Below, piece by piece: positions 367 to 55,208 of a stretch of DNA of 64,000 nucleotides. The translations under genes and the position numbers were made by a program. Every line of letters begins with the position of its first letter. Within the stretch, counting starts at the first letter, position 1. The DNA comes from Muricea muricata (taxonomy: Eukaryota > Cnidaria > Anthozoa > Malacalcyonacea > Plexauridae): positions 43,839,544-43,903,543 of the forward strand of contig OY979717.1 in assembly GCA_963855995.1 (NCBI GenBank), written 5' to 3'. The notes under the pieces are model-generated. The model searched no databases. It was not told the DNA's origin and saw only the letters and a program-made list of their open reading frames with translations.

Positions 367-389
367 TTAACCTCAGGTCAGGCAAGATT

Positions 390-420
<31 letters not shown>

Positions 421-421
421 G

Positions 422-459
<38 letters not shown>

Positions 460-703
460 ATGAAGTGGGATCAGCTCAACTTGCAAATCTCCGTTGCGTT
501 GCAGCGGCGAATTGTAGTCTCGAGAAGTATTGTCCAGGCGCGATCGACCATGCCCAAGTTGCTTGGAACAGCACGTCGTAGAGGGTGACAACCCCGTGCG
601 TGGCCGTGGCCGAGCGCCCGCGAACTACTTTCGAAGAGTCGGGTTGTTTGGGAATGCAGCCCAAAACGGGTGGTAAACTCCATCTAAAGCTAAATACGCG
701 CAC

Positions 704-737
<34 letters not shown>

Positions 738-1472
738 GTGAAAAGGACTTTGAAAAGAGAGTTAAAAAGTACGTGAAACCGTTGAAAGGGAAGCGAATGG
801 ATTTAGCAATTTGCCCTGTCGGACTCAGCCGTTCGTTTGCCGCGACGGTCGTGTTCTCGATCCGAGCGGACGGGACGTGAACGGATACGGCGTGCGATCG
901 GCGCACTTTCGGCGGACAAGCGTCAGCATCGATCGGTCGTGGGCGAAAAGCACTCGAGGAAGGTGAACCGCATCTGGTTGTTAAGCCTCGTGATCGCCTG
1001 GCCCATTGCCGACCGTTTCCTCTGCGACGTGTGCATCGATGCCTGGCAGCTCGAACTGTCGGCTCGGCGTGTCGACTGTGGCGGACGGCACGCCTGTGCG
1101 CACGAACAGCCGCCGATCGGCAGTTCGATGCTCGCACATGACGCGTCTAAAATGCCGACGATCATACGGCCTCATTCGACCCGTCTTGAAACACGGACCA
1201 AGGAGTCTAACATGTGTGCAAGTCGCCGGGTGATCGAAACCCGTGGGCGCAATGAAAGTGAACGTGCGCCGAGGTGAGAAGCAACCATGTGCAGCATCAT
1301 CGACCGACCTATTCTGCTCACAGAAAGGTTCGAGTAAGAGCATACATGTTGGGACTCGAAAGATGGTGAACTATGCCTGAATAGGGCGAAGCCAGCGGAA
1401 ACACTGGTGGAAGCCCGTAGCGATTCTGACGTGCAAATCGATCGTCAAATTTGGGTATAGCGGCGAAAGACT

Positions 1473-1513
<41 letters not shown>

Positions 1514-1807
1514 TAGGATAGCTGGAGTTCACCATGCAGTTTTATCAGGTAAAGCGAATGATTAGAGGTCTTAGGGTCGAAATGACCTTAACCTATTCTC
1601 AAACTTTAAATTGGTAAGAAGTCTGACTTGCTTGATTGAAGCCAGACACTCGAATGCGAGGTGTTAGTGGGCCATTTTTGGTAAGCAGAACTGGCGATGC
1701 GGGATGAACCAAACGCCGTGTTAAGGTGCCAAAGTCGACGCTCATAAGATCCCAAAAAAGGTGTTGGTCGATATTGACAGCAGGACCGTGGCCATGGAAG
1801 TCGGAAT

Positions 1808-1841
<34 letters not shown>

Positions 1842-2756
1842 TCGACTAGTCCTGAAAATGAATGGCACTCAAGCGTCGCACCTATACTCGGCCGTCGGTG
1901 CAAGTGCAAGGTGCCGACGAGTAGGAGGGCGCGGCGGTCGTGATGCAGCCTTTGGCGTGAGTCAGGGTGAAACGGCCGCTGGTTCAGATCTTGGTGGTAG
2001 TAGCAAATATTCAAATGAGAACTTTGAAGACCGAAGTTGAGAAAGGTTCCATGTGAACAGCAGTTGGACATGGGTTAGTCGATCCTAAGAGATAGGGAAA
2101 TTCTGTGACAAAGCGTCACATTCGTGGACCGCCCTTCGAAAGGGAATCGGGTTAATATTCCCGAACCGGAACGAGGATACTGTCACGCAGTGACACCGGC
2201 GGCAACGTAACCGAACTCGGAGACGTTGGCGAGAGCCTTGGAAAGAGTTCTCTTTTCTTTTTAACGGTCAACGCTACCCTGAAATCGGTTCAGCCGGCGA
2301 TAGGGTTTCACGGCCGGTAAAGCTGCACACTTCTTGTGCGGTCTGATGCGCCCTCGACGGCCCTTGAAAATCCGAGCGAGCTGTTTACTTTCTTGTCCGG
2401 TCGTACTCATAACCGCAGCAGGTCTCCAAGGTGAGCAGCCTCTGGTCCATAGAACAATGTAGGTAAGGGAAGTCGGCAAAATGGATCCGTAACTTCGGGA
2501 AAAGGATTGGCTCTAAGGGTTGGGCCTTTCGGGCTGGGTTGCGAAGTGCGTAGACCCGTCGTGGGCTGACGGAGATGTACGGTTCGCCGTGTGTCGACGT
2601 CGGATTTCGAGGGGACCTCGCGTGGACTGGCTCAGCTGTGACCACCAGGTCGAATCGGCAGGCAATTAACAACCGACTTAGAACTGGAACGGACAAGGGG
2701 AATCCGACTGTTTAATCAAAACAAAGCATTGCGATGGCTGGTGACCGGTGCTGACG

Positions 2757-2790
<34 letters not shown>

Positions 2791-2805
2791 AGTGAAGTAG
2801 TTCGC

Positions 2806-2897
<92 letters not shown>

Positions 2898-2968
2898 TAA
2901 CGAGATTCTCACTGTCTCTATCTACTATCTAGCGAAACCACAGCTAAGTGAACGGGCTTGGCAGCAAC

Positions 2969-3006
<38 letters not shown>

Positions 3007-3403
3007 TGACTCTGTAAAGGAACACCAGAGGTGTAGAATAGGTGGGAGGAGCAATCCGGCGGTGAAATACCACTACTCTTGTCGTTCTTTTACTTATTCG
3101 GTAATGCGGAGCTGGATGCAAACGTCCAAGTTTTAGCGTTAAGATCGCTCTTCTGCCGGTCGGTCCGAGCCGAAGACACCGTCAGGTCGGGAGTTTGGCT
3201 GGGGCGGCACGACTGTCAAATGATAACGCAGGTGTCGTAAGGTGATCTCGATGAGAACGGAAATCTCATGTTGAACAAAAGGGTAAATGCTCGCTTGATT
3301 TTGATTTTCAGTATGAATACAAACTGTGAAAGCATGGCCTATCGATCCCTTCGTTTTACGAGTTTTAAGCAAGGGGTGTCAGAAAAGTTTCCACAGGGAT
3401 AAC
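367..3403 (+). rRNA. 28S rRNA, unit A, 5' part up to the insertion
   Basis: Large-subunit rRNA, starting at the conserved CCTCAGGTCAGGCAAGATTA block and running without interruption through the known R2 retroelement site (CTCTTAAGGTAGC at 2841-2853) and the R1 region (about 2905-2940), both empty. It ends at ACAGGGATAAC, in the peptidyl-transferase region, where a 7.37-kb insertion begins. The remainder of the gene resumes at 10776. Unless the insertion is removed from the transcript this gene cannot give a functional rRNA. Between about 420 and 950 unit A differs at a number of positions from units B and C (for example G at 421 where B and C have the usual A), but from about 1080 on it is nearly identical to B. 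Confidence 0.95.
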
Positions 3404-3559
3404 CCACGACTTTAATGCCAGTATTACCCACCGTCTTACCTTCCCTGCCGAATGATCACTTGAGATATCGATTATGAGTTTGGGGCACAATTTAGTAAAC
3501 CAAATTTAGTTGTGAGCGCATTTCCGTTATGTTTCATAATGGGCACTCTCCGCTGCTTT

Positions 3560-5700
3560 TTATGTTATATTCCTTGTCAACCAGTCACAGCACTCCAGTG
3601 TGAGCTTGTCTCAGAAATCTTGTTAGCTACTGTGAAGCCTTACCATCATACATATCGTTCAAAGATACTCCACAAGAAATAACAAAGTTTCCTTTTTTAA
3701 GATATCTGAACAAAACAGCCCAATTTGCACTTTTTTCAAGTTTTTGACAAACTATATATGTACTATAATAGTGTTAACAATAGGATTAATAAAAATGCTA
3801 TCTTCTATATGTTAAGAAAGACGCCGATTGAAAAATCAGACATTTGTAGAAGAGTTAGAAACTTAACACTTTGCAGAGACTGTACGCAAGCAAGACAAGA
3901 CAACTTAAGCCACCGCTTGACTAAGTTCATCTTTGTCCAGCAACACAACAACATTTTCAAGTGTCTATCCCTGGAAGTCGCGAATTCACTAGGCTTCTTC
4001 ACTCATGGCTGTGTATTGTTGTGTTTTGTCAAGCATTCGCAGTTCTCAGTGTAAAGCTTTTCTCAAGAATGTTATTGGTGAACTTGAAACCTAACCATCA
4101 TAGATGTCGTTCAAAGAAATTCGACAACAATTGATAAATTGTTCAGTTCAAAATATCTAAAAACAAAACAGCAAATTTGTACATTTCTTAGGTTTTTGAC
4201 AAATTATGTGCTATCGTTTTAGCCATACGAGTAATATCAATGTACTGGACTATGTTAAGAAAGTCACCAAATGAAAAATCAGTTATCTGCACAGGAGACA
4301 GAAACTTGACACTTTGCAGAGACTTCACGCAAGACAGGGCAACAATAAACCGCCCCTTTACTAAGTTCACCTATTATATCCAACAACGTTCTCAAATGTC
4401 AGTTCCTGGGATTCACGAATTCACTGGGGCTCTTTCACTCATGGCTATGCTGTGTGACGCCTTGTGAAGCATTCGCAGTTCTCAGTGTGAGCTTTCTCAA
4501 GTATCTTGTTGGGCTATGATGAAGCTTGACCATCATAGACGTCCTTCAAAGAAACTCCACAACAAAAAGTAAAAGTGTTCTTTTTTAAGATACCTGAACA
4601 AAACAGCCCAATTTGCACTTTTTTTCAAGTTCTTCACAAACTATGTGCTATAGTTTTGCCATACGATTAAGATAAATGTTCCCTTCTATATTAAGAAAGA
4701 CGCCGGATGAAAAATTCTGCAGACATTTCCAGAGGAGTCAGAAATTGGGCACTTTGCAGAGACTTTACGCAAGGCATTGCAACTTAAGCCGCCGCTTGAC
4801 TAATTTCACCTATGTCCAACATTACAACAACATTCTCAGATGGCTGTCCCTGGAATTCGGGAATTCACTGGGCTCCTTCACTGATGGCTATATTGTGTTT
4901 TGTCAAGCATTCGCAGTTTTCAGTGTGAGCTTTTCTCAAGAATCTTGTTGGCTATCTTGAAACCTGACCATCATAGATGTCGTTCAAAGAAACTCGACAA
5001 CAACGGATAAAGTATTCTGTTCAATATATCTTAACAAAAGAGTCAATTTGATCCTTTTTTCACGTTTTTGACATATATTTTTTTCTACACATTTATTTAA
5101 TGCTGCTGAGAACTATTACTATGTGCTTTCGTTTTAGTCATAGGATTAATATCAGTGTTCTCTTCTAGTTGAGAAAGTCACCAGATGAAAATTCAGACAG
5201 CGGCGGAGGAGAGAGAAACTTGACACTATGCAGAGATTTTTCGCACGACAGGGCAACATAAGCCGCCCTTTGACTAAGTTCACCTGTGTCCAATATCATT
5301 CTCAAATGTTTGTCCATTGGACTCGCGGATTCACTGGGTTCCTTCCTTCATGGCTATGTTATGCCTTGTCTAGCATTCGCAGTTATTAAGTCTGAGCTTT
5401 TCCAAAACATCTTGTTGGTTACGTTGGACCCTGACCATCATAGATGTCGTCCAAAGAAACTCCAGAACCGAATAAAGAGTCTTTTTAAGACATCTAAACA
5501 AAAGAGCAATTTACACTTTTTTTCAAGTTTTTTGACAGATATTTTTTTTTACTCAAGTATTTAATGATGTTTAGAACTGAAGAAGGACTGTTACTATTAT
5601 GAGCTATCGTTTTCGTCATATGATTAATACCAATATTTTTCTCGCTCTGTGTTCAGAAAGTCACCGGCTGAAAATGAGACATCTGCAACATCTGAGACAC
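3560..5700. repeat. Left tandem array of the rDNA element, copy A (about 440-bp units)
   Basis: About five diverged units. The block resembling TTCGCAGTTCTCAGTGTGAG starts near 3590, 4035, 4473, 4915 and 5375, followed each time by an ACCATCATAGATGTCG-like block, a T-rich CACTTTTTTCAAG block and a block resembling GAAAGTCACC. On the minus strand the units near 3805-4002 and 4188-4370 read as helicase-tail-like peptide (CVKSLQSVKFLSPVQ), matching RVKTLNSIKFLTPLQ of the helicase at 50088-50297. The array therefore seems to have grown by repeating a fragment of the element's own helicase gene end. Open frames inside it are not taken as genes. Confidence 0.8.
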
Positions 5701-5705
5701 TCTTG

Positions 5706-6659
5706 TCATCTGGTTTCGAATGTTATTGCTAGATGCCTGGTCTGATTCGCTGACGAAAATGACTCGCTCGCGGTGCGTGTCTTTACATTCTCCTTCCTGT
5801 TGTTTATCTCTACAGCATCCCCTGCTGCTCTCTGCGCTAGTGGCTCTTGCATTTGCCCATTCATTTGTAATATGATGTCCATCAACTTATTTGTCATCGG
5901 GAAGGCCTCACTCTCCCGTCATGGCGGTGCAGCAGCTTGTGCAGTTGGTAGGATCAGTTGTTGTTGTTGTGGTACTGCTTGTAGGCGACCAGTGTTCCAC
6001 CAGTCGAAGAAGTTCCAGATGTTGCCGACGCCAGGGTTCATCAACTGTTTGGACAACTGCAGGCTGCACTGTGCCGTATGTAAATTGTGGTACACATACT
6101 GTTCACCATCTGTTGTGGTGCTCGGTAAAGTTTCCATATTCTTGAACTGGATCGCCTTTGGGTTGTCGTTCCGCAGCTTCGCCATCTACTGTTCAAGATT
6201 CTGTTTTAAAGCTCGTATCGTTAGGTCAGTTAAACGTGCAGGGCGGCAGATTCTTGCGCTAAAATTCTAATAGATGCTTCTATTTCGGTCTCTTGGAAGG
6301 ATCAGGTCATAATAATATATACTTCAGTTTGTGTTGCCTGTCGTTGTTTTTTCCTTGTTGTCAACATTCACGAGGCTTTGCTCTGGATTGGCGTTATCAT
6401 ATTCTTTATATTTTAGAGGGTACCGGAATCGATCCATTCCGAGTTTTTCAAAAGCTCCCAATTTTGCTACACCAACTGCACCGATTTGCTAAGAGCAAAC
6501 TTTTAGGCACATTAGCCACTCACATTTTCTGGGCGTTAATTTCTGTAGGGACTCGTTGTTGTATTCCACTTAGGCAACGTACGGCCGAAGGAAGTGATCA
6601 GGATAATGTCTAAAAACTATCTCTTTGGAAGGCGACGTATAGGGTAGTTTCGATGCCAT
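5706..6659 (-). pseudogene. Relic of Helitron accessory protein gene, copy A
   Basis: The reading starts at the ATG whose complement is at 6657-6659 and gives MASKLPYTSPSKEIVF, then FLRPY, a TAA stop, and later KLTPRKCEWLM. These line up with MTSKQAFSTPSK, HFLRPY and KLTSRNCQWLM of the accessory protein at 41554-42696. Further on, NPKAIQFKNMETL matches SPEAIQFKNAKK, and near the C-terminus LMDIILQMNGQMQ matches MVDIILQLQNQMQ. Several stops and frame changes break it. The product has no family I recognise: an N-terminal region with conserved aromatic residues followed by a low-complexity, Gln/Ser/Thr-rich part. It lies on the same strand as the helicase relic and just downstream of it. Confidence 0.7.
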
Positions 6660-6809
6660 CTGAAAGAAACACACAATTTTCACAACCATCAGTTTCTAAA
6701 TTAGTAAAGACATATTGTTACGTTTTTCTGAAAGTCAGTGTAATATAAAGTGCAGGATTTTTATAGCATGCAGTCATTACGAAGTGCATCTGTTTGCCCT
6801 AGGACGAAA

Positions 6810-7560
6810 ATGTAACTGCTTTGAAATGAGACGATTTAAAAAATTTAATGCAATAATTAATTCAAGTTTTTTAAGGTTAGTTTAATTCAAGTTTTAACAC
6901 GAGATAGAACTACATGTGTGCCACCAGGGCCAAGACTAACTGTTTCTAACCACACAATGATGTTACTCAGTTCTTGGCTTTGGCTTTTACAAATGGTCAT
7001 TGCATATCTAGGTACAAACGTATTACATTTTCAACCTTCGGTGAATTTAGCATTGTCACATTCTGACAGATTTCTTATTGTCGAGACATGATAGACAGAG
7101 ATTTTTTTCAATTAGGTAGGTGTAATATAACTGTCAAGCGTCATTAAGACTATGGCAGGTTGTGCATTCACTACACCATCCTTTTTTCTGTGTTTTGCTT
7201 AATGACAACGTCCACTCCCCCCGTAAATATTTACAGGAGGATCATCGTTGTTCAATTGGATATTTCCGACACACGTGTTCGGAGGGAACAAGTATTGCAA
7301 AACAAGGGTATTGATTCGTGAGGCTACATTCCGACTGACTGGTAAGAATGTACTATCTGCATCATTACATATTATGTACAAGAGATCTGCCTCATTAATC
7401 GATGCTTTATTGTGTAGCAGTCGGTCATGTTGAAGTTTACAAAGAATTTCCCGTCTTGGTTTCCAATGACATTAATGGTTGAACCATCTAAGTTAAATGA
7501 CGCCGGCATGTCTACACATAGCCGGTGAAAGAACGAACTTATTCCTGGTAGAATCATATA
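6810..7560 (-). pseudogene. PIF1-type helicase, C-terminal relic, copy A
   Basis: Minus-strand translation around 6900-7010 gives TICKSQSQ and a VSLGPGG...LSRVKT stretch, matching TICKSQGQTLDNVIVW and ASLGPGAAYVALSRVKT of the helicase at 50088-50297; this is the last conserved helicase motif of the PIF1/RecD-like group. Upstream, 7199-7381 gives STFLPVSRNVASRINTLVLQ and NDDPPVNIY, matching STFITVSRNAVLQINRLVLE and NDEPPANIY at 50349-50717. Similarity ends near 7560, so the ATPase core and the Rep domain are missing. It has several frame breaks and is certainly not functional. Confidence 0.75.
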
Positions 7561-7799
7561 GTTTCAGCAAAGGGTTCCAAATGCCTTGGAAATTTCTTTC
7601 TAAAATTTTGATATTCAGTTAGACAAAACTATGCAACAATCAGGTCCATGTCTAATGTCTAACTAAAGGATTTAACTGTTTGGAAACATATCGTTACAAA
7701 TCCGATTAAAATGGGAACTCGTTCCGGCTACAATAAGCAGTACAACAGTTTCAGCAACGGGTTAAAGACCTATTGCCAAATCGGTTCCAAAATTTATAT
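7561..7799. other. Unassigned stretch between helicase relic and right array, copy A
   Basis: AT-rich sequence with no gene, RNA or repeat that I can name. It joins the truncated helicase relic to the right repeat array and may mark the internal deletion that removed the Rep part of the element. Confidence 0.5.
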
Positions 7800-10650
7800 A
7801 ACAAAGTTATAACCCATGAAGCATCAAGGAAAAGTTCAAAAACTGGTTACTTCATTGTCGAAAGAGAAATATAAGAGAAAGAAGTTTTTCAAAAATACTT
7901 CGAAAAAACGTTTTACAGCTTCACTGATTCCCCGCCTTCTTTGGCCTAAACAAACTTTGGAGACCGAATCAAAATTTGTTGCTGGATTCTCCGGCGACGG
8001 GAAGGGAAATCGAAGCAAAAAATAACCTGAGAAAAGGATACGTCAATTACGTTACCTCTCCTTATCTGCCCTTCATAAAACTTTAACAATTTGTAACATT
8101 TAAAAGTATAATTCAGTCGTAAAATTTCAAGTTAATAAACCAAAAGACAAAGAAGTTATAAGCCAGGAAATATCGAGGAAAAAATTCAAAAACAAGTTAC
8201 CTAATTGTGGAAACAGAAAAAAACAAAGGAGAGTCAAGAGCAGTTTTTGGAAAATATCTCCCCAAAGAGCAAGTTTCCGGGCATTGCAATTGCTAATCTC
8301 CCTTGGGCCCCAACAAAATTTGGACGTTGATTCCAAATCTGTTGTCGGATTTTCTATACGGCTTTTCTGGGGAGAGATACGATCGAAAAACACTGAAAGA
8401 CAAAGAAATGCCCGTTATGTCACTTTCGGTAATCTTCAATCATAAAACTCTCAAAGCTAATTCAACCTAAAAGTCCCCATCAATGGTCTAAGTTACAAGA
8501 AAATCGATTGAAAGGCAAAAAAGTTATTAAACTTTGCTTTGTAAATTTTACACTTAAATAACCCTGGAAAAACTGATCCCTATTAGGAAAACAATCAAAT
8601 TCCGAGCTTAATTGCGCGGAAAAAATTCATCGTGGCACATAAACGTCAATGTATCAAGTTATTCGTATAAAAATGTCACCTTTAGCTAAGTTTCATGTAA
8701 AACTGTCTATTTATAACAAAGCTAGAAGACATCACAAGGCGGTAAAAATTCGGCTCAGGATAAAATTGACAAAAACACACCGGTGTGCATCGTTTTTCTT
8801 TTCGCTAAAAAAACGGAGAACAAACCTGTTTTAGACTTCGCCACCGCATTACCCCCGTTTCCCCCAAACAACTTTCGATGGTGATTCCAAATCTGTTGTC
8901 GGATTTACCGTACGACTTTTCCGGGGGGAGATACGATTAAAAATCTCTAAAAAAAGAAGAAACGTCAAATACGTAACTTCCGGCCACCTGTCAATCATGA
9001 AACTGTAACAGTTAACTCCTCTTGCCAGTCCCCCTAAACGTTGAAAGTTACAAAGAAATTGGTTGAAAGACAAAAAAGTTATAAGCGTTTAAAGATCATG
9101 TTTTAGAAATCATCACATGTTGGTAAAATTTCAGCTCAGGACAAAATTCAGAAACCCATACTGGTGTGCATCATTTTCGTTTTCCTTAAAAAACGGAGAA
9201 AAAACCTGTTTTAGACTTCGCCACTGCATTAAACCCCGCTTACCCCCAAACAACTTTTGACGGTGATTCCAAATCTGTTGTCGGATTTACCGTACAACTT
9301 TTCCGGGGGGAGATACGATTGAAAATCACTAAAAAAAAGAAGAAACGTCTAATACGTCACTTCCGGTCACCTGTCAATCATGAAACTATAACAGTTAACT
9401 CCTCTTGCCAGTCCCCTTAAACGTTGAAAGTTACAAAGAAATTGGTTGAAAGACAAAAAAGTTATAAGCGTTTAAAGATCATGTTTTAGAAATCATCACA
9501 TGTTGGTAAAATTTCGGCTGAGGACAAAATTCAGAAACCGACACTGGTGTGCATCATTTTCGTTTTCGTTAAAAAAACAGAGAAAAAACCTGTTTTAGGC
9601 TTCGCCACTGCAGGAGCCCCCGCTTGCCCCCAAACAACTTTTGACGGTGATCCCAAATCTGTTGTCGGATTTACCGTACAACTTTTCCGGGGGGAGATAC
9701 GATTGAAAATCACTAAATAAAAAGAAACGTCTAATACGTCACTTATGGTCACCTGTCAATCATGAAACTATAACAGTTAACTCCTCTTGCCAGTCCCTCT
9801 AAACGTTGAAAGTTACAAAGAAATTGGTTGAAAGACAAAAAAGTTATAAGCGTTTAAAGATCATGTTTTAGAAATCATCACATGTTGGTAAAATTTCGGC
9901 TCAGGACAAAATTCAGAAACCGACACTGGTGTGCATCATTTTCCTTTTTCGTTAAAAAAACAAAGAAAAAACCTATTTTAGGCTTCGCCACTGCACTAAC
10001 ACGCGCTTGCCCCCAAAAAACTTTTGACGGTGATTCCAAATCTGTTGTCGGATTTACCGTACAACTTTTCCGGGGGGGAGATACGATTGAAAATCACTAA
10101 AAAAAAAGAAACGTCTAATACGTCACTTATGGTCACCTGTCAATCATGAAACTATAACAGTTAACTCCTCTTGCCAGTCCCTCTAAACGTTGAAAGTTAC
10201 AAAGAAATTAGTTGAAAGACAAAAAAGTTATAAGCGTTTAAAGATCATGTTTTAGAAATCATCATATGTTGGTAAAATTTCGGCTCAGGACAAAATTCAG
10301 AAACCGACACTGGTGTGCATCATTTTCGCTTTCGTTAAAAAAACAGAGAAAAAACCTGTTTTAGGCTTCGCCACTGCACTAGCCCCCGCTTGCTCCCGAA
10401 CAACTTTTGACGGTGATTCCAAATCTGTTGTCAGATTTTTCGTACCACTTTTCCGGGGGGAGATAAGGTAAAAAAACTCGTCAAAATGAACAAACGCCCA
10501 TTACGTCATTTCCGGTAATCTGTCAATCACGAAACTTTTACAGCTCACTCATCCTGTCAGTCTCCCTCAACGGTCAAAGTTACAAAGAAATCGAATGAAA
10601 GACAAAAAAGTTATACGAGTTTAAAAATCATGTTTCAGAAAAGTTATAAT
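7800..10650. repeat. Right tandem array of the rDNA element, copy A (about 380-bp units)
   Basis: A block resembling GACAAAAAAGTTATAAGCG recurs near 8137, 8515, 9070, 9450, 9833, 10217 and 10590. The central units are spaced about 380-385 bp and are very similar; the outer ones are diverged. Each full unit also carries CAAATCTGTTGTCGGATTTACCG and a GGGGGGAGATACGA block. A single diverged unit of the same kind lies at about 55240-55863 in the non-rDNA element. Short open frames within it look repeat-derived and are left out. Confidence 0.85.
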
Positions 10651-10723
10651 AATATATCTAAGTATACTAATGTAAGATGGAAAATTCATTAAGCTCTATA
10701 TAAGTAAACCTGGACTGCCTTTC

Positions 10724-10739
10724 AGGGCAAGTGTGCCCT
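10724..10739 (+). other. Subterminal hairpin near right end of element, copy A
   Basis: AGGGCA, a 4-nt loop, then TGCCCT. It lies 36 bp before the 28S junction. A short hairpin close to the 3' end is a known feature of Helitron-type elements, though here it is further from the end than in classical Helitrons. Confidence 0.45.
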
Positions 10740-10775
10740 TTGCAAGATGTAATCGAAGAGTCTTTTTTTAATAAC

Positions 10776-10808
10776 TGGCTTGTGGCGCCAAGCGTTCATA
10801 GCGACGTT

Positions 10809-10846
<38 letters not shown>

Positions 10847-10888
10847 CGAAGCAGAATTCGCCAAGCGTCGGATTGTTCACCCGCCAAT

Positions 10889-10943
<55 letters not shown>

Positions 10944-11352
10944 TTGAACGGTTGTTGCAACAGTAATTCTGCTCAGTACGAGAGGAACCGCAGATTCAGA
11001 CAACTGGCTCATGCACTTGCCTGAAAAGGCAATGGTGCGAAGCTACCATCTGTTGGATTATGATTGAACGCCTCTAAATCAGAATCCGTGCTAGAACGCA
11101 ACAATTTTCTAACTCTGGGAAACTTAAGCGAACCAAAATAGAGAGGCGGCGGCCTCCTAGCTAGTCCCGTTTCTCCTGTGTCACAACGTGCCCGTGCTGC
11201 ATACAATGCGGCCATGCACTAAAGCGATCCAAATCTAATTTGCCCAGAGCTAAATCCTTTGCAGACGACTTAAATAAAAACTGGGTATTGTGCGCAGTAG
11301 AGTAGCCGTGTTGCTACGATCTGCTAAGATTAAGCCCTTGTTCGACGATTTG
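10776..11352 (+). rRNA. 28S rRNA, unit A, 3' part after the insertion
   Basis: 28S resumes at TGGCTTGTGGCGCCAAGC and continues through the sarcin-ricin loop region (CAGTACGAGAGGAACCG near 10975) to the conserved 3' end around TTGTTCGACGATTTGC. The exact 3' end is not marked in the sequence and is set by family similarity. Confidence 0.93.
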
Positions 11353-14476: not shown

Positions 14477-14499
14477 TTAACCTCAGGTCAGGCAAGATT

Positions 14500-14555
<56 letters not shown>

Positions 14556-14813
14556 TTCTGTAATGGCGAATGAAGTGGGATCAGCTCAACTTGCAAATCT
14601 CCGTTGCATTGCAGCGGCGAATTGTAGTCTCGAGAAGTATTGTCCAGGCGCGATCGACCATGCTCAAGTTGCTTGGAACAGCACGTCGTAGAGAGTGACA
14701 ACCCCGTGCGTGGCCGTGGCCGAGCGCCCGCGAACTACTTTCGAAGAGTCGGGTTGTTTGGGAATGCAGCCAAAAACGGGTGGTAAACTCCATCTAAAGC
14801 TAAATACGAGCAC

Positions 14814-14858
<45 letters not shown>

Positions 14859-15582
14859 TTTGAAAAGAGAGTTAAAAAGTACGCGAAACCGTTGAAAGGG
14901 AAGCGAATGGAGTTAGCAATTTGCTCTGTCGGATTGAGTCGTTCGTTCGCCGCGACGGTCGTGTTCTCGATCCGAGCGGACGGGACGTGAACGGATACGG
15001 CGTGCGATCGGCGCACTTTCGGCGGACAAGCGTCAGCATCGATCGGTCGTCGGTGAAAAGCACTCGAGGAAGGTGAACCGCATCTGGTTGTTAAGCCTCG
15101 TAATCGCCTGGCCCATTGCCGACCGTTCCCTCTGCGACGTGTGCATCGATGCCTGGCAGCTCGAACTGTCGGCTCGGCGTGTCGACTGTGGCGGACGGCA
15201 CGCCTGTGCGCACGAACAGCCGCCGATCGACAGTTCGATGCTCGCACATGACGCGTCTAAAATGCCGACGATCATACGGCCTCATTCGACCCGTCTTGAA
15301 ACACGGACCAAGGAGTCTAACATGTGTGCAAGTCGCCGGGTGATCGAAACCCGTGGGCGCAATGAAAGTGAACGTGCGCCGAGGTGAGAAGCAACCATGT
15401 GCAGCATCATCGACCGACCTATTCTGCTCACAGAAAGGTTCGAGTAAGAGCATACATGTTGGGACCCGAAAGATGGTGAACTATGCCTGAATAGGGCGAA
15501 GCCAGCGGAAACACTGGTGGAAGCCCGTAGCGATTCTGACGTGCAAATCGATCGTCAAATTTGGGTATAGCGGCGAAAGACT

Positions 15583-15637
<55 letters not shown>

Positions 15638-15917
15638 TTCACCATGCAGTTTTATCAGGTAAAGCGAATGATTAGAGGTCTTAGGGTCGAAATGACCTTA
15701 ACCTATTCTCAAACTTTAAATTGGTAAGAAGTCTGACTTGCTTGATTGAAGCCAGACACTCGAATGCGAGGTGTTAGTGGGCCATTTTTGGTAAGCAGAA
15801 CTGGCGATGCGGGATGAACCAAACGCCGTGTTAAGGTGCCAAAGTCGACGCTCATAAGATCCCAAAAAAGGTGTTGGTCGATATTGACAGCAGGACCGTG
15901 GCCATGGAAGTCGGAAT

Positions 15918-15951
<34 letters not shown>

Positions 15952-16866
15952 TCGACTAGTCCTGAAAATGAATGGCACTCAAGCGTCGCACCTATACTCG
16001 GCCGTCGGTGCAAGTGCAAGGTGCCGACGAGTAGGAGGGCGCGGCGGTCGTGATGCAGCCTTTGGCGTGAGTCAGGGTGAAACGGCCGCTGGTTCAGATC
16101 TTGGTGGTAGTAGCAAATATTCAAATGAGAACTTTGAAGACCGAAGTTGAGAAAGGTTCCATGTGAACAGCAGTTGGACATGGGTTAGTCGATCCTAAGA
16201 GATAGGGAAATTCTGTGACAAAGCGTCACATTCGTGGACCGCCCGTCGAAAGGGAATCGGGTTAATATTCCCGAACCGGAACGAGGATACTGTCACGCAG
16301 TGACACCGGCGGCAACGTAACCGAACTCGGAGACGTTGGCGAGAGCCTTGGAAAGAGTTCTCTTTTCTTTTTAACGGTCAACGCTACCCTGAAATCGGTT
16401 CAGCCGGCGATAGGGTTTCACGGCCGGTAAAGCTGCACACTTCTTGTGCGGTCTGATGCGCCCTCGACGGCCCTTGAAAATCCGAGCGAGCTGTTTACTT
16501 TCTTGTCCGGTCGTACTCATAACCGCAGCAGGTCTCCAAGGTGAGCAGCCTCTGGTCCATAGAACAATGTAGGTAAGGGAAGTCGGCAAAATGGATCCGT
16601 AACTTCGGGAAAAGGATTGGCTCTAAGGGTTGGGCCTTTCGGGCTGGGTTGCGAAGTGCGTAGACCCGTCGTGGGCTGACGGAGATGTACGGTTCGCCGT
16701 GTGTCGACGTCGGATTTCGAGGGGACCTCGCGTGGACTGGCTCAGCTGTGACCACCAGGTCGAATCGGCAGGCAATTAACAACCGACTTAGAACTGGAAC
16801 GGACAAGGGGAATCCGACTGTTTAATCAAAACAAAGCATTGCGATGGCTGGTGACCGGTGCTGACG

Positions 16867-16900
<34 letters not shown>

Positions 16901-16915
16901 AGTGAAGTAGTTCGC

Positions 16916-17007
<92 letters not shown>

Positions 17008-17078
17008 TAACGAGATTCTCACTGTCTCTATCTACTATCTAGCGAAACCACAGCTAAGTGAACGGGCTTGGCAGCAAC

Positions 17079-17116
<38 letters not shown>

Positions 17117-17513
17117 TGACTCTGTAAAGGAACACCAGAGGTGTAGAATAGGTGGGAGGAGCAATCCGGCGGTGAAATACCACTACTCTTGTCGTTCTTT
17201 TACTTATTCGGTAATGCGGAGCTGGATGCAAACGTCCAAGTTTTAGCGTTAAGATCGCTCTTCTGCCGGTCGGTCCGAGCCGAAGACACCGTCAGGTCGG
17301 GAGTTTGGCTGGGGCGGCACGACTGTCAAATGATAACGCAGGTGTCGTAAGGTGATCTCGATGAGAACGGAAATCTCATGTTGAACAAAAGGGTAAATGC
17401 TCGCTTGATTTTGATTTTCAGTATGAATACAAACTGTGAAAGCATGGCCTATCGATCCCTTCGTTTTACGAGTTTTAAGCAAGGGGTGTCAGAAAAGTTT
17501 CCACAGGGATAAC
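14477..17513 (+). rRNA. 28S rRNA, unit B, 5' part up to the insertion
   Basis: Homologous to 367-3403 with an offset of 14110 and no indels. The first ~600 bp resemble unit C more than unit A (for example TTCTGTAATGGCG near 14566, where A has the more usual CTCAGTAACGGCG). From about 15190 on it is almost identical to unit A. R1 and R2 sites are again empty. The gene breaks at the same base as unit A, after ACAGGGATAAC. Confidence 0.95.
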
Positions 17514-17669
17514 CCACGACTTTAATGCCAGTATTACCCACCGTCTTACCTTCCCTGCCGAATGATCACTTGAGATATCGATTATGAGTTTGGGGCACAA
17601 TTTAGTAAACCAAATTTAGTTGTGAGCGCATTTCCGTTATGTTTCATAATGGGCACTCTCCGCTGCTTT

Positions 17670-19785
17670 TTATGTTATATTCCTTGTCAACCAGTCACAG
17701 CACTCCAGTGTGAGCTTGTCTCAGAAATCTTGTTAGCTACTGTGAAGCCTTACCATCATACATATCGTTCAAAGATACTCCACAAGAAATAACAAAGTTT
17801 CCTTTTTTAAGATATCTGAACAAAACAGCCCAATTTGCACTTTTTTCAAGTTTTTGACAAACTATATATGTACTATAGTGTTAACAATAGGATTAATAAA
17901 AATGCTATCTTCTATATGTTAAGAAAGACGCCGATTGAAAAATCAGACATTTGTAGAAGAGTTAGAAACTTAACACTTTGCAGAGACTGTACGCAAGCAA
18001 GACAAGACAACTTAAGCCACCGCTTGACTAAGTTCATCTTTGTCCAGCAACACAACAACATTTTCAAGTGTCTATCCCTGGAAGTCGCGAATTCACTAGG
18101 CTTCTTCACTCATGGCTGTGTATTGTTGTGTTTTGTCAAGCATTCGCAGTTCTCAGTGTAAAGCTTTTCTCAAGAATGTTATTGGTGAACTTGAAACCTA
18201 ACCATCATAGATGTCGTTCAAAGAAATTCGACAACAATTGATAAATTGTTCAGTTCAAAATATCTAAAACAAAACAGCAAATTTGTACATTTCTTAGGTT
18301 TTTGACAAATTATGTGCTATCGTTTTAGCCATACGAGTAATATCAATGTACTGGACTATGTTAAGAAAGTCACCAAATGAAAAATCAGTTATCTGCACAG
18401 GAGACAGAAACTTGACACTTTGCAGAGACTTCACGCAAGACAGGGCAACAATAAACCGCCCCTTTACTAAGTTCACCTATTATATCCAACAACGTTCTCA
18501 AATGTCAGTTCCTGGGATTTCACTCATGGCTATGCTGTGTGACGCCTTGTGAAGCATTCGCAGTTCTCAGTGTGAGCTTTCTCAAGTATCTTGTTGGGCT
18601 ATGATGAAGCTTGACCATCATAGACGTCCTTCAAAGAAACTCCACAACAAAAAGTAAAAGTGTTCTTTTTTAAGATACCTGAACAAAACAGCCCAATTTG
18701 CACTTTTTTTCAAGTTCTTCACAAACTATGTGCTATAGTTTTGCCATACGATTAAGATAAATGTTCCCTTCTATATTAAGAAAGACGCCGGATGAAAAAT
18801 TCTGCAGACATTTGCAGAGGAGTCAGAAATTGGGCACTTTGCAGAGACTTTACGCAAGGCATTGCAACTTAAGCCGCCGCTTGACTAATTTCACCTATGT
18901 CCAACATTACAACAACATTCTCAGATGGCTGTCCCTGGAATTCGGGAATTCACTGGGCTCCTTCACTGATGGCTATATTGTGTTTTGTCAAGCATTCGCA
19001 GTTTTCAGTGTGAGCTTTTCTCAAGAATCTTGTTGGCTATCTTGAAACCTGACCATCACAGATGTCGTTCAAAGAAACTCGACAACAACGGATAAAGTAT
19101 TCTGTTCAATATATCTTAACAAAAGAGTCAATTTGATCCTTTTTTCACGTTTTTGACATATATTTTTTTCTACACATTTATTTAATGCTGCTGAGAACTA
19201 TTACTATGTGCTTTCGTTTTAGTCATAGGATTAATATCAGTGTTCTCTTCTAGTTGAGAAAGTCACCAGATGAAAATTCAGACAGCGGCGGAGGAGAGAG
19301 AAACTTGACACTATGCAGAGATTTTTCGCACGACAGGGCAACATAAGCCGCCCTTTGACTAAGTTCACCTGTGTCCAATATCATTCTCAAATGTTTGTCC
19401 ATTGGACTCGCGGATTCACTGGGTTCCTTCCTTCATGGCTATGTTATGCCTTGTCTAGCATTCGCAGTTATTAAGTCTGAGCTTTTCCAAAACATCTTGT
19501 TGGTTACGTTGGACCCTGACCATCATAGATGTCGTCCAAAGAAACTCCAGAACCGAATAAAGAGTCTTTTTAAGACATCTAAACAAAAGAGCAATTTACA
19601 CTTTTTTTCAAGTTTTTTGACAGATATTTTTTTTTACTCAAGTATTTAATGATGTTTAGAACTGAAGAAGGACTGTTACTATTATGAGCTATCGTTTTCG
19701 TCATATGATTAATACCAATATTTTTCTCGCTCTGTGTTCAGAAAGTCACCGGCTGAAAATGAGACATCTGCAACATCTGAGACAC
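17670..19785. repeat. Left tandem array, copy B
   Basis: Same five-unit array as at 3560-5700, including helicase-tail-like segments on the minus strand (17912-18109, 18294-18476). One unit is shortened by a 21-bp deletion at about 18518 which removes the GAATTC-containing block. Confidence 0.8.
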
Positions 19786-19790
19786 TCTTG

Positions 19791-20744
19791 TCATCTGGTT
19801 TCGAATGTTATTGCTAGATGTCTGGTCTGATTCGCTGACGAAAATGACTCGCTCGCGGTGCGTGTCTTTACATTCTCCTTCCTGTTGTTTATCTCTACAG
19901 CATCCCCTGCTGCTCTCTGCGCTAGTGGCTCTTGCATTTGCCCATTCATTTGTAATATGATGTCCATCAACTTATTTGTCATCGGGAAGGCCTCACTCTC
20001 CCGTCATGGCGGTGCAGCAGCTTGTGCAGTTGGTAGGATCAGTTGTTGTTGTTGTGGTACTGCTTGTAGGCGACCAGTGTTCCACCAGTCGAAGAAGTTC
20101 CAGATGTTGCCGACGCCAGGGTTCATCAACTGTTTGGACAACTGCAGGCTGCACTGTGCCGTATGTAAATTGTGGTACACATACTGTTCACCATCTGTTG
20201 TGGTGCTCGGTAAAGTTTCCATATTCTTGAACTGGATCGCCTTTGGGTTGTCGTTCCGCAGCTTCGCCATCTACTGTTCAAGATTCTGTTTTAAAGCTCG
20301 TATCGTTAGGTCAGTTAAACGTGCAGGGCGGCAGATTCTTGCGCTAAAATTCTAATAGATGCTTCTATTTCGGTCTCTTGGAAGGATCAGGTCATAATAA
20401 TATATACTTCAGTTTGTGTTGCCTGTCGTTGTTTTTTCCTTGTTGTCAACATTCACGAGGCTTTGCTCTGGATTGGCGTTATCATATTCTTTATATTTTA
20501 GAGGGTACCGGAATCGATCCATTCCGAGTTTTTCAAAAGCTCCCAATTTTGCTACACCAACTGCACCGATTTGCTAAGAGCAAACTTTTAGGCACATTAG
20601 CCACTCACATTTTCTGGGCGTTAATTTCTGTAGGGACTCGTTGTTGTATTCCACTTAGGCAACGTACGGCCGAAGGAAGTGATCAGGATAATGTCTAAAA
20701 ACTATCTCTTTGGAAGGCGACGTATAGGGTAGTTTCGATGCCAT
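19791..20744 (-). pseudogene. Relic of Helitron accessory protein gene, copy B
   Basis: Near-identical to 5706-6659, with the same stop codons and frame changes, so the gene was already broken before the insertion spread to the second unit. The only change noted is T for C near 19820. Confidence 0.7.
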
Positions 20745-20894
20745 CTGAAAGAAACACACAATTTTCACAACCATCAGTTTCTAAATTAGTAAAGACATAT
20801 TGTTACGTTTTTCTGAAAGTCAGTGTAATATAAAGTGCAGGATTTTTATAGCATGCAGTCATTACGAAGTGCATCTGTTTGCCCTAGGACGAAA

Positions 20895-21645
20895 ATGTAA
20901 CTGCTTTGAAATGAGACGATTTAAAAAATTTAATGCAATAATTAATTCAAGTTTTTTAAGGTTAGTTTAATTCAAGTTTTAACACGAGATAGAACTACAT
21001 GTGTGCCACCAGGGCCAAGACTAACTGTTTCTAACCACACAATGATGTTACTCAGTTCTTGGCTTTGGCTTTTACAAATGGTCATTGCATATCTAGGTAC
21101 AAACGTATTACATTTTCAACCTTCGGTGAATTTAGCATTGTCACATTCTGACAGATTTCTTATTGTCGAGACATGATAGACAGAGATTTTTTTCAATTAG
21201 GTAGGTGTAATATAACTGTCAAGCGTCATTAAGACTATGGCAGGTTGTGCATTCACTACACCATCCTTTTTTCTGTGTTTTGCTTAATGACAACGTCCAC
21301 TCCCCCCGTAAATATTTACAGGAGGATCATCGTTGTTCAATTGGATATTTCCGACACACGTGTTCGGAGGGAACAAGTATTGCAAAACAAGGGTATTGAT
21401 TCGTGAGGCTACATTCCGACTGACTGGTAAGAATGTACTATCTGCATCATTACATATTATGTACAAGAGATCTGCCTCATTAATCGATGCTTTATTGTGT
21501 AGCAGTCGGTCATGTTGAAGTTTACAAAGAATTTCCCGTCTTGGTTTCCAATGACATTAATGGTTGAACCATCTAAGTTAAATGACGCCGGCATGTCTAC
21601 ACATAGCCGGTGAAAGAACGAACTTATTCCTGGTAGAATCATATA
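20895..21645 (-). pseudogene. PIF1-type helicase, C-terminal relic, copy B
   Basis: Same relic as at 6810-7560 (SRNVASRINTLVLQ and TICKSQSQ stretches on the minus strand). No sign of repair or further decay compared with copy A. Confidence 0.75.
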
Positions 21646-21884
21646 GTTTCAGCAAAGGGTTCCAAATGCCTTGGAAATTTCTTTCTAAAATTTTGATATT
21701 CAGTTAGACAAAACTATGCAACAATCAGGTCCATGTCTAATGTCTAACTAAAGGATTTAACTGTTTGGAAACATATCGTTACAAATCCGATTAAAATGGG
21801 AACTCGTTCCGGCTACAATAAGCAGTACAACAGTTTCAGCAACGGGTTAAAGACCTATTGCCAAATCGGTTCCAAAATTTATAT

Positions 21885-24735
21885 AACAAAGTTATAACCC
21901 ATGAAGCATCAAGGAAAAGTTCAAAAACTGGTTACTTCATTGTCGAAAGAGAAATATAAGAGAAAGAAGTTTTTCAAAAATACTTCGAAAAAACGTTTTA
22001 CAGCTTCACTGATTCCCCGCCTTCTTTGGCCTAAACAAACTTTGGAGACCGAATCAAAATTTGTTGCTGGATTCTCCGGCGACGGGAAGGGAAATCGAAG
22101 CAAAAAATAACCTGAGAAAAGGATACGTCAATTACGTTACCTCTCCTTATCTGCCCTTCATAAAACTTTAACAATTTGTAACATTTAAAAGTATAATTCA
22201 GTCGTAAAATTTCAAGTTAATAAACCAAAAGACAAAGAAGTTATAAGCCAGGAAATATCGAGGAAAAAATTCAAAAACAAGTTACCTAATTGTGGAAACA
22301 GAAAAAAACAAAGGAGAGTCAAGAGCAGTTTTTGGAAAATATCTCCCCAAAGAGCAAGTTTCCGGGCATTGCAATTGCTAATCTCCCTTGGGCCCCAACA
22401 AAATTTGGACGTTGATTCCAAATCTGTTGTCGGATTTTCTATACGGCTTTTCTGGGGAGAGATACGATCGAAAAACACTGAAAGACAAAGAAATGCCCGT
22501 TATGTCACTTTCGGTAATCTTCAATCATAAAACTCTCAAAGCTAATTCAACCTAAAAGTCCCCATCAATGGTCTAAGTTACAAGAAAATCGATTGAAAGG
22601 CAAAAAAGTTATTAAACTTTGCTTTGTAAATTTTACACTTAAATAACCCTGGAAAAACTGATCCCTATTAGGAAAACAATCAAATTCCGAGCTTAATTGC
22701 GCGGAAAAAATTCATCGTGGCACATAAACGTCAATGTATCAAGTTATTCGTATAAAAATGTCACCTTTAGCTAAGTTTCATGTAAAACTGTCTATTTGTA
22801 ACAAAGCTAGAAGACATCACAAGGCGGTAAAAATTCGGCTCAGGATAAAATTGACAAAAACACACCGGTGTGCATCGTTTTTCTTTTCGCTAAAAAAACG
22901 GAGAACAAACCTGTTTTAGACTTCGCCACCGCATTACCCCCGTTTCCCCCAAACAACTTTCGATGGTGATTCCAAATCTGTTGTCGGATTTACCGTACGA
23001 CTTTTCCGGGGGGAGATACGATTAAAAATCTCTAAAAAAAGAAGAAACGTCAAATACGTAACTTCCGGCCACCTGTCAATCATGAAACTGTAACAGTTAA
23101 CTCCTCTTGCCAGTCCCCCTAAACGTTGAAAGTTACAAAGAAATTGGTTGAAAGACAAAAAAGTTATAAGCGTTTAAAGATCATGTTTTAGAAATCATCA
23201 CATGTTGGTAAAATTTCAGCTCAGGACAAAATTCAGAAACCCATACTGGTGTGCATCATTTTCGTTTTCCTTAAAAAACGGAGAAAAAACCTGTTTTAGA
23301 CTTCGCCACTGCATTAAACCCCGCTTACCCCCAAACAACTTTTGACGGTGATTCCAAATCTGTTGTCGGATTTACCGTACAACTTTTCCGGGGGGAGATA
23401 CGATTGAAAATCACTAAAAAAAAGAAGAAACGTCTAATACGTCACTTCCGGTCACCTGTCAATCATGAAACTATAACAGTTAACTCCTCTTGCCAGTCCC
23501 CTTAAACGTTGAAAGTTACAAAGAAATTGGTTGAAAGACAAAAAAGTTATAAGCGTTTAAAGATCATGTTTTAGAAATCATCACATGTTGGTAAAATTTC
23601 GGCTGAGGACAAAATTCAGAAACCGACACTGGTGTGCATCATTTTCGTTTTCGTTAAAAAAACAGAGAAAAAACCTGTTTTAGGCTTCGCCACTGCAGGA
23701 GCCCCCGCTTGCCCCCAAACAACTTTTGACGGTGATCCCAAATCTGTTGTCGGATTTACCGTACAACTTTTCCGGGGGGAGATACGATTGAAAATCACTA
23801 AATAAAAAGAAACGTCTAATACGTCACTTATGGTCACCTGTCAATCATGAAACTATAACAGTTAACTCCTCTTGCCAGTCCCTCTAAACGTTGAAAGTTA
23901 CAAAGAAATTGGTTGAAAGACAAAAAAGTTATAAGCGTTTAAAGATCATGTTTTAGAAATCATCACATGTTGGTAAAATTTCGGCTCAGGACAAAATTCA
24001 GAAACCGACACTGGTGTGCATCATTTTCCTTTTTCGTTAAAAAAACAAAGAAAAAACCTATTTTAGGCTTCGCCACTGCACTAACACGCGCTTGCCCCCA
24101 AAAAACTTTTGACGGTGATTCCAAATCTGTTGTCGGATTTACCGTACAACTTTTCCGGGGGGGAGATACGATTGAAAATCACTAAAAAAAAAGAAACGTC
24201 TAATACGTCACTTATGGTCACCTGTCAATCATGAAACTATAACAGTTAACTCCTCTTGCCAGTCCCTCTAAACGTTGAAAGTTACAAAGAAATTAGTTGA
24301 AAGACAAAAAAGTTATAAGCGTTTAAAGATCATGTTTTAGAAATCATCACATGTTGGTAAAATTTCGGCTCAGGACAAAATTCAGAAACCGACACTGGTG
24401 TGCATCATTTTCGCTTTCGTTAAAAAAACAGAGAAAAAACCTGTTTTAGGCTTCGCCACTGCACTAGCCCCCGCTTGCTCCCGAACAACTTTTGACGGTG
24501 ATTCCAAATCTGTTGTCAGATTTTTCGTACCACTTTTCCGGGGGGAGATAAGGTAAAAAAACTCGTCAAAATGAACAAACGCCCATTACGTCATTTCCGG
24601 TAATCTGTCAATCACGAAACTTTTACAGCTCACTCATCCTGTCAGTCTCCCTCAACGGTCAAAGTTACAAAGAAATCGAATGAAAGACAAAAAAGTTATA
24701 CGAGTTTAAAAATCATGTTTCAGAAAAGTTATAAT
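21885..24735. repeat. Right tandem array, copy B
   Basis: Same array as at 7800-10650 with the same unit number; only scattered substitutions (for example G for A near 22798, C for T near 24350). Confidence 0.85.
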
Positions 24736-24808
24736 AATATATCTAAGTATACTAATGTAAGATGGAAAATTCATTAAGCTCTATATAAGTAAACCTGGAC
24801 TGCCTTTC

Positions 24809-24824
24809 AGGGCAAGTGTGCCCT
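24809..24824 (+). other. Subterminal hairpin near right end of element, copy B
   Basis: Same AGGGCA/TGCCCT stem with 4-nt loop as at 10724-10739, again 36 bp before the 28S junction. Confidence 0.45.
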
Positions 24825-24860
24825 TTGCAAGATGTAATCGAAGAGTCTTTTTTTAATAAC

Positions 24861-24893
24861 TGGCTTGTGGCGCCAAGCGTTCATAGCGACGTT

Positions 24894-24931
<38 letters not shown>

Positions 24932-24973
24932 CGAAGCAGAATTCGCCAAGCGTCGGATTGTTCACCCGCCAAT

Positions 24974-25028
<55 letters not shown>

Positions 25029-25437
25029 TTGAACGGTTGTTGCAACAGTAATTCTGCTCAGTACGAGAGGAACCGCAGATTCAGACAACTGGCTCATGCA
25101 CTTGCCTGAAAAGGCAATGGTGCGAAGCTACCATCTGTTGGATTATGATTGAACGCCTCTAAATCAGAATCCGTGCTAGAACGCAACAATTTTCTAACTC
25201 TGGGAAACTTAAGCGAACCAAAATAGAGAGGCGGCGGCCTCCTAGCTAGTCCCGTTTCTCCTGTGTCACAACGTGCCCGTGCTGCATACAATGCGGCCAT
25301 GCACTAAAGCGATCCAAATCTAATTTGCCCAGAGCTAAATCCTTTGCAGACGACTTAAATAAAAACTGGGTATTGTGCGCAGTAGAGTAGCCGTGTTGCT
25401 ACGATCTGCTAAGATTAAGCCCTTGTTCGACGATTTG
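24861..25437 (+). rRNA. 28S rRNA, unit B, 3' part after the insertion
   Basis: Continuation of the gene begun at 14477; sequence identical in appearance to 10776-11352. Confidence 0.93.
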
Positions 25438-28567: not shown

Positions 28568-28590
28568 TTAACCTCAGGTCAGGCAAGATT

Positions 28591-28646
<56 letters not shown>

Positions 28647-28904
28647 TTCTGTAATGGCGAATGAAGTGGGATCAGCTCAACTTGCAAATCTCCGTTGCAT
28701 TGCAGCGGCGAATTGTAGTCTCGAGAAGTATTGTCCAGGCGCGATCGACCATGCTCAAGTTGCTTGGAACAGCACGTCGTAGAGAGTGACAACCCCGTGC
28801 GTGGCCGTGGCCGAGCGCCCGCGAACTACTTTCGAAGAGTCGGGTTGTTTGGGAATGCAGCCCAAAACGGGTGGTAAACTCCATCTAAAGCTAAATACGA
28901 GCAC

Positions 28905-28949
<45 letters not shown>

Positions 28950-29692: not shown

Positions 29693-29728
<36 letters not shown>

Positions 29729-30008: not shown

Positions 30009-30042
<34 letters not shown>

Positions 30043-55200: not shown

Positions 55201-55208
55201 AAAAAGAG

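Follow-up and report, generated by a model that had tools for sequence, protein, structure and literature searches.

Helitrons are regarded as near-random in their choice of target, and specialists on ribosomal DNA (rDNA) are known among the non-long terminal repeat (non-LTR) retrotransposons, of which R1, R2, R4, and R9 occupy rDNA positions other than the one described here. In this study, we analysed a window of 64 kb (C2:43839544-43903543, on contig OY979717.1) of the 453-Mb genome of the anthozoan Muricea muricata, in which a 28S rRNA gene is split by a 7.4-kb element, here named E1. The window also holds a second copy, E2, and another element of the same family, E3. As judged from sequence, E1, E2, and E3 very probably represent a clade of rolling-circle transposons that combine an HUH Rep with a PIF1-type helicase and have one home site, GGGATAA^CTGGCTTG, in the peptidyl-transferase segment of 28S.

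Pokey, a piggyBac element of the Daphnia 28S gene, is called in PMC3849761 the only DNA transposon known to have evolved specificity for the rDNA unit; the same source gives TTAA as its target, places it also at many TTAA sites outside rDNA, and puts its 28S site within a few bp of that of R2. The elements described here resemble Pokey in being DNA transposons with a 28S site and non-autonomous derivatives there, whereas their site is ATAAC, 551 nt downstream of the R2-like motif, and no DDE or piggyBac transposase domain was found in the Rep-helicase and accessory proteins scanned by Pfam. R2 is described as an rDNA-specific parasite with coexisting lineages (PMC5035012). Like R1, R4, and R9, it depends on reverse transcription, whereas no reverse transcriptase was found among the open reading frames (ORFs) scanned here, the short ORFs of E1 being scanned in part, and neither an endonuclease nor a reverse transcriptase was matched by Pfam in the two longest Rep-helicases discussed below (1237 and 1232 amino acids, aa). 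The Dada DNA transposons are reported to be specific for multicopy RNA genes, with related lineages for each target (PMC3706591; PMC8869645), and differ from the present elements in their DDD/E transposase and in having small RNA genes as targets. The targets given in PMC5148889 are A^T for Helitron1, TTTT^T/C for Helitron2, and TT for Helentron. With the Helitron superfamily our elements share an HUH two-tyrosine Rep fused to a PIF1-type helicase, as well as non-autonomous derivatives; unlike Helitron1, Helitron2, and Helentron, they use one 28S site, have neither TC/CTRR ends nor an endonuclease domain, and carry an extra accessory gene. By the features compared, the clade is not canonical Helitron1, since its ends differ, and not Helentron, since it is without the endonuclease; a placement in Helitron2 is possible. 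It is new in its target behaviour and lies inside the Helitron superfamily in the wide sense. No rDNA-specific Helitron was apparent from title and start of abstract among the open-licence PMC papers listed, a scope that leaves Repbase reports and subscription journals outside; PMC11136912 mentions both Helitrons and 28S rDNA.

In the first rDNA unit of the window, 28S is broken exactly between GGGATAAC (last base 3403) and TGGCTTGTGG (first base 10776), and the insertion junction in the two tandem units is GGGATAAC^TGGCTTG / GGGATAAC^TGGCTTGTGG. A first-pass annotation made from the window alone had reported the split gene, and the same split is repeated in the next unit, which holds E2. Because ATAA(C) stands at both junctions, the ends of E1 are uncertain by up to 5 nt. 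The site is presumably the position of the omega intron and I-SceI in large-subunit (LSU) rRNA, with which the sequence is compatible, and we take the omega/L2449 group I introns to lie at the same peptidyl-transferase position within a few nt. Those introns are self-splicing and carry a homing endonuclease, whereas no group I intron was matched in the window at the Rfam gathering threshold.

The first-pass annotation had also suspected specialization on this 28S site, and searches of the genome bore it out. Queries consisting of element sequence only were chosen to avoid bias from 28S in the query. The left end of E1 gave eight matches, seven at 28S and one (E3) behind the right end of another element; its right end likewise gave eight, seven at 28S and one (L037; L-numbers denote loci read elsewhere) before another element's left end. 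All 16 matches are thus at the 28S base (14) or at an element end (2), and no E1-family end was found elsewhere. The 16 are partly dependent, E1 and E2 being duplicates and L005/L007 (right ends L025/L024) probably so, and at one locus, L006/L085, just nine 28S bases are visible. A query across the left junction of E1 gave 41 rows, of which 24 were read at the site: an element begins at this base in 16 (L001-L007, L013-L020, and L060), the site is uninterrupted in six (L008, L009, L010, L012, L046, and L070), and two have deletions across it (L061 and L063); L011 stops at a contig end, and the row read in L062 falls short of the site. On the right side, the 28S copies read comprise 29 of the 30 loci of one search, L037 being the thirtieth, and eight loci of another. 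Of these 37 copies, 18 have the right end of an element in front of them, whereas the remaining 19 either continue leftward as 28S for varied lengths or have no recognised end.

The inserts at this base are not of one kind. They comprise seven left-end and seven right-end DNA families, that of E1 in each set, as defined by blastn (E 1e-5) on the insert sequence adjoining the junction, up to 900 nt, with L016 and L031 belonging to one element, L051. The 28S flanks are 84-100% identical to those of the window on the left (15 loci) and 93-100% identical on the right (16 of the 18 loci measured). Further copies sharing the 28S site, for which the first-pass annotation had proposed a search, exist at other loci, in several families and with differing divergence. 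For the right end of the L054-type family, eight rows at seven places were obtained, of which two abut 28S, four abut a left end, and one stops short of the end. Short uninterrupted 28S fragments with differing 5′ limits were also seen (L030, L032-L036, L046, L050, L067, L070, L071, and others), and such fragments occur on chromosomes C1, C3, C4, C6, C10, and C13.

The assignment to rolling-circle transposons, which the first-pass annotation had made for E1 as a Helitron-family element, is upheld by better preserved relatives. At C2:41425050-41436650, 2.4 Mb from E1, an 11.3-kb element (L084 and L085) occupies the same 28S site. Its ends are 91.6% and 92.6% identical to those of E1 and its coding part is 85-91% identical to that of E3; it carries a 402-aa accessory ORF, and its Rep-helicase gene, nearly intact and 89-91% identical to that of E3, spans two frames (290 and 1015 aa) that overlap. 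Since this element joins ends of the E1 type to a coding part of the E3 type, E1 and E3 belong to one family, and E1 is a deletion derivative. About 19 kb upstream of the window, L054 has an intact Rep-helicase of 1237 aa, an intact accessory ORF of 273 aa, and a right end on 28S. The Rep-helicase frame of L055, likewise intact, is 1232 aa long, and the right end of that element is followed by another element's left end rather than by 28S. The proteins of L054 and L055 score above the Pfam cut-offs for both Helitron_like_N (PF14214) and PIF1 (PF05970). PF14214 is also above its cut-off in L051, a 7.9-kb element on C1 that is unrelated to E1 at the DNA level, has 28S on both sides, and contains a 615-aa Rep frame. 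The motifs GTxHLHxLxWL and RYVTSYVxK are present in Reps of the clade, and PIF1-type structures were matched in PDB. Codon positions 1, 2, and 3 differ between L054 and L055 by 0.284, 0.185, and 0.578, a pattern that argues for long purifying selection.

The Reps of the clade that were compared are 37-64% identical to one another. Against four unnamed Helitrons lying elsewhere in the genome, two of which are 97% alike, identity falls to 21-35% over partial regions, the exceptions being a 22-residue match (45%) and two 25-residue matches (56%). Judged by these identities, the Reps of the 28S clade stand apart from the Helitrons dispersed over this genome. Matches to the 28S-clade Rep are concentrated on C2 (78 of 86), whereas of the 150 PF14214 matches scored, out of 352 candidates, two fall in C2:32.8-44 Mb and 148 outside it. 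When the 51 Rep clusters of C2 were set against 30 listed element-28S junctions, eight had a correctly oriented junction no more than 9 kb away, compared with a mean of 1.4 and at most 6 in 2000 random placements.

One relative was found outside this genome, among 11 candidate stretches of a prokaryote collection. L059, in JAAEPJ010000273.1, is about 40% identical to the L054 protein over residues 117-1234 of the latter, and comes with an accessory gene and, behind, a GGGTGGGCGGGTTGGG block. The record is titled a bacterial metagenome-assembled genome, and a eukaryotic-type Rep-helicase transposon in it is likely to be eukaryotic contamination. In viral contigs, two stretches fitted a pattern and neither was a relative. 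The accessory gene is present in all five copies read that are complete or nearly so (L051, L054, L055, L084, and L059); its protein of about 270-400 aa has no family beyond weak matches, and no Pfam endonuclease domain was found in those scanned.

Left ends in 28S are preceded by GGGATAA in 14 of 16 cases, the others being L020 (GGGACAA, diverged) and L060 (GGGCTAA), and an exact ATAAC terminates 12 of the 18 right ends on 28S. Because right ends usually finish in (A)ATAAC, insertion restores ATAAC/TGGCTTG, that is, half of the target. Four left ends (L014, L016, L017, and L018) have A instead of C after ATAA, so that the part shared by the two junctions is ATAA, which may be a duplicated 4-bp target or may be encoded by the element. 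An insertion point CCAGT^TATCCC on the Rep strand, inside a TT dinucleotide as in Helentron, would fit the junctions, which do not single it out. A C-rich block, G-rich on the Rep strand, lies about 25-65 nt inside the left end, and in 19 of 21 left ends the G-quadruplex score is above the control 95th percentile (median 1.36 versus a control mean of 0.32); the 21 include L059, several are related, and the G-rich motif was spotted before scoring. The terminal features of known Helitrons were sought as well. The 5′-TC and 3′-CTRR ends are absent from E1 and L051 in every phase of the ATAAC ambiguity, terminal folding in E1 and E3 is no stronger than that of shuffled sequences, and neither the asymmetric terminal inverted repeat nor the end hairpins of Helitron2 were seen at the ends of E1.

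GTTAT is the pentamer with which the element starts at its 5′ end, and it stands again just past the 3′ end. We infer that Rep would nick the bottom strand of 28S at GTTAT and would join the displaced single strand there, with the G-quadruplex-like block of G-rich sequence, some 25-65 nt away from the 3′ end, possibly taking the terminator role that the hairpin has in canonical Helitrons, and with the accessory protein as a candidate target-recognition factor. The HUH transposases of IS200/IS605 and IS91 use short sequences flanking the element as targets in a like manner; they are bacterial, are without the PIF1 fusion, and have short targets as against the gene-specific site here.

A unit that is already occupied would still be a target, ATAAC/TGGCTTG having been restored by the insertion, and this would explain the stacks. 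A right end is directly followed by a left end at nine junctions (E3, L055, L037, L056, L064, L065, L086, L087, and L089). In seven of them the right end was identified by sequence: the E3 flank is 79% identical to L053, that of L056 is 92% identical to L051, and L037, L064, L086, L087, and L089 were recognised by end searches; those of L055 and L065 were judged by form only. The stacks combine different families. In the C2 array to which L056 belongs, 33 matches to the accessory gene were listed, most of them at a spacing of about 3.82 kb; L056 covers slightly over one array unit, and the exact junction of right end and left end was found in that one unit read. Altogether, three arrays hold accessory copies (L056-L058; C2:38.46-38.91 and 39.74-39.81 Mb), with spacings of about 3.82, 1.41, and 8.25 kb.

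Other explanations of this pattern have to be weighed. A single ancient Helitron insertion in 28S, spread by rDNA amplification and unequal exchange until its descendants diverged into the present families, would account for E1 and E2, clearly a unit duplication, for L005/L007 and L024/L025, which resemble duplicates of one lineage, and for the relatedness of the Rep proteins throughout. Yet one lineage would not be expected to leave 28S flanks as conserved as those described above around seven plus seven insert families without blastn similarity, to stack different families one behind another, or to place a copy on another chromosome, C1, and we regard this account as very improbable. An equally slight chance attaches to the idea that there is no true specificity, a loose preference for AATAAC letting the elements land anywhere while dead rDNA serves as a refuge for the surviving copies. 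ATAAC is indeed short, most copies lie in the rDNA-bearing, decayed part of C2, and a left end on C3 (L066) is outside 28S; however, every one of the E1-family end matches is at the 28S base or at an element end, the scored Pfam-family Helitrons are dispersed across the genome, and one 28S base position recurs in seven families. That the picture results from an assembly artefact or a misjoined contig, a worry that the difficulty of assembling rDNA makes natural and that the first-pass annotation had itself raised for the 28S junctions, is excluded for practical purposes, because identical junctions recur at many loci with differing divergence, E1-type ends standing at the identical 28S base of other loci with 75-98% identity.

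It is possible, although we think it the weaker expectation, that the elements are rDNA-specific but that their target is chosen by a factor other than Rep, for instance the accessory protein or cleavage of the homing type at an I-SceI-like site. This is compatible with a 28S-specific HUH Rep and PIF1 clade, of which it forms a sub-question. The accessory gene is found in all five of the well-preserved copies read and is amplified in arrays, and the shared 4 bp of ATAA resemble a staggered cut, such as I-SceI makes (4 bp); on the other side, no Pfam endonuclease domain is present in the Rep-helicase or accessory proteins scanned.

Several observations weigh against the 28S-specific rolling-circle clade itself. 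No transposition event was observed. The ATAA found at either junction may represent duplicated target, and Helitrons are, to our knowledge, not known to make one. Six of the 18 right ends differ from ATAAC (AATAAA in L024, L025, and L027, AATAAG in L068, and AAAC at the end of L043 and L049), and E3, L005, L007, and L060 show the G-rich motif weakly. The other 43 of the 51 Rep clusters, which may be stacked or lie near junctions beyond those listed, have no listed 28S junction nearby; the C3 left end is preceded by neither 28S nor ATAA; and in six accessory copies off C2 (L074-L079) neither an end motif nor 28S was recognised. Stacking as the source of all accessory arrays is not supported, L057 and L058 showing no junction of right and left ends.

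Within the window (Table 1), the alignment of E1 with E2 shows 5 mismatches over the 7347 columns compared and a further 25 columns with gaps, and the 28S 3′ parts of units 1 and 2 are identical (0/576 differences), so that E1 and E2 are a unit duplication. The 28S 5′ parts of the two units differ at 25 of 3036 positions and their 5.8S genes at 4 of 153, and for this reason the rDNA array appears old and decaying. The first-pass annotation had recognised remains of two genes, a PIF1-type helicase and an accessory gene, as common to E1 and E3. DNA similarity confirmed the helicase relic and the 6333-6665 part of the accessory relic, the rest of which was recognised by eye; at the protein level, the sole match of the E1 helicase relic is Helraiser (7lcc, E 0.8). 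E1 is a dead, non-autonomous deletion derivative that was duplicated along with its rDNA unit.

E3 shares with E1 the left end, the accessory gene, the helicase, and the right-end repeats. The HUH motif (GTAHVHLL) and the two tyrosines (YVSSYVSK) of its Rep lie in separate frames, and its helicase region matches PIF1 helicases in PDB, in agreement with the earlier proposal of an HUH, two-tyrosine Rep and PIF1 element in the window. The predicted profile similarity of this gene held for PIF1 by way of PDB and in part for Helitron_like_N, which one of the broken frames matches with E=0.0006, below the cut-off. The extent first given for E3, 41024-55863, stood with small changes: its start was corrected by a few bases, its right limit is truncated relative to E1, and a nested transposon was added. 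E3 was also considered as an off-site insertion, which was rejected, its left flank being the right end of another 28S element. The nested TTAA-flanked transposon sits between the accessory and helicase genes of E3, and its three ORFs scanned have no Pfam match. A 0.4-kb duplication within E3 is 97% identical (51326-51727 and 54264-54658), and an inverted interspersed repeat of about 208 bp, 95.7% identical, has one copy within E3 (54993-55200) and the other at 40247-40454. In the rDNA, tetranucleotide GCCT/TGCT repeats (11431-11615) occupy the spacer immediately past 28S, and a fragment of a hAT dimerisation domain (PF05699, E=7.2e-07) lies at 31625-32044, behind the truncated third 28S.

Table 1 Coordinates of the rDNA and transposon features in the 64-kb window
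Feature	Position	Strand	Basis or remark
28S unit 1, 5′ part up to ..CCACAGGGATAAC	368..3403	+	Rfam LSU_rRNA_eukarya, sequence
E1, 7.4-kb putative rolling-circle element in 28S site	3404..10775		gene relics on minus strand
Subterminal G-rich motif, E1 left end (3′ end in Rep sense)	3427..3449	-	G-quadruplex score 1.16 (control 99th percentile 1.16)
Tandem repeats of ~436-474 bp in E1	3574..5578		
E1 accessory-gene relic, several frames	5709..6670	-	6333-6665 resembles E3 42371-42702 (DNA); 5709-6185 pieces by eye
E1 PIF1-type helicase relic, C-terminal part	6799..7483	-	DNA similarity to E3 and L084
Tandem repeats in E1, 383 bp x 5	8723..10641		
Short hairpin AGGGCA/TGCCCT near E1 right end	10724..10739	+	centroid fold; region no better than shuffles (z 0.90)
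28S unit 1, 3′ part from TGGCTTGTGG	10776..11351	+	Rfam LSU_rRNA_eukarya
28S unit 2, 5′ part	14478..17513	+	Rfam, comparison with unit 1
E2, second copy of E1 in unit 2	17514..24860		99.93% identity over compared columns
28S unit 2, 3′ part	24861..25436	+	Rfam, comparison with unit 1
28S unit 3, ends before insertion site (truncated)	28569..30437	+	Rfam, sequence
Right end (..GGGATGAATAAC) of another 28S element	40888..41028		79% identity to right end abutting 28S at L053/L039
E3, second E1-family element	41029..55864 (about)		right end truncated relative to E1
E3 accessory gene, broken	41557..42696	-	row C2:43881934-43882218
DNA transposon, TTAA-flanked, terminal inverted repeats, later separate insertion nested in E3	42724..49966		
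E3 Rep-helicase gene, broken	50088..54205	-	row C2:43891905-43893200

In summary, we consider it likely that these elements belong to an ancient rolling-circle clade, probably present in more than one organism, that is obligate on one 28S peptidyl-transferase site, evades target exhaustion by rebuilding ATAAC/TGGCTTG, and forms stacks that seed satellite-like arrays. If this is true, strict targeting can evolve in HUH/PIF1 transposases, and the clade would have converged on what we take to be the ribosomal position of the omega intron. Target recognition by Helitrons would become testable with intact genes, with a possible use in directed insertion, and there would be a simple path from stacked insertions to satellite-like arrays.

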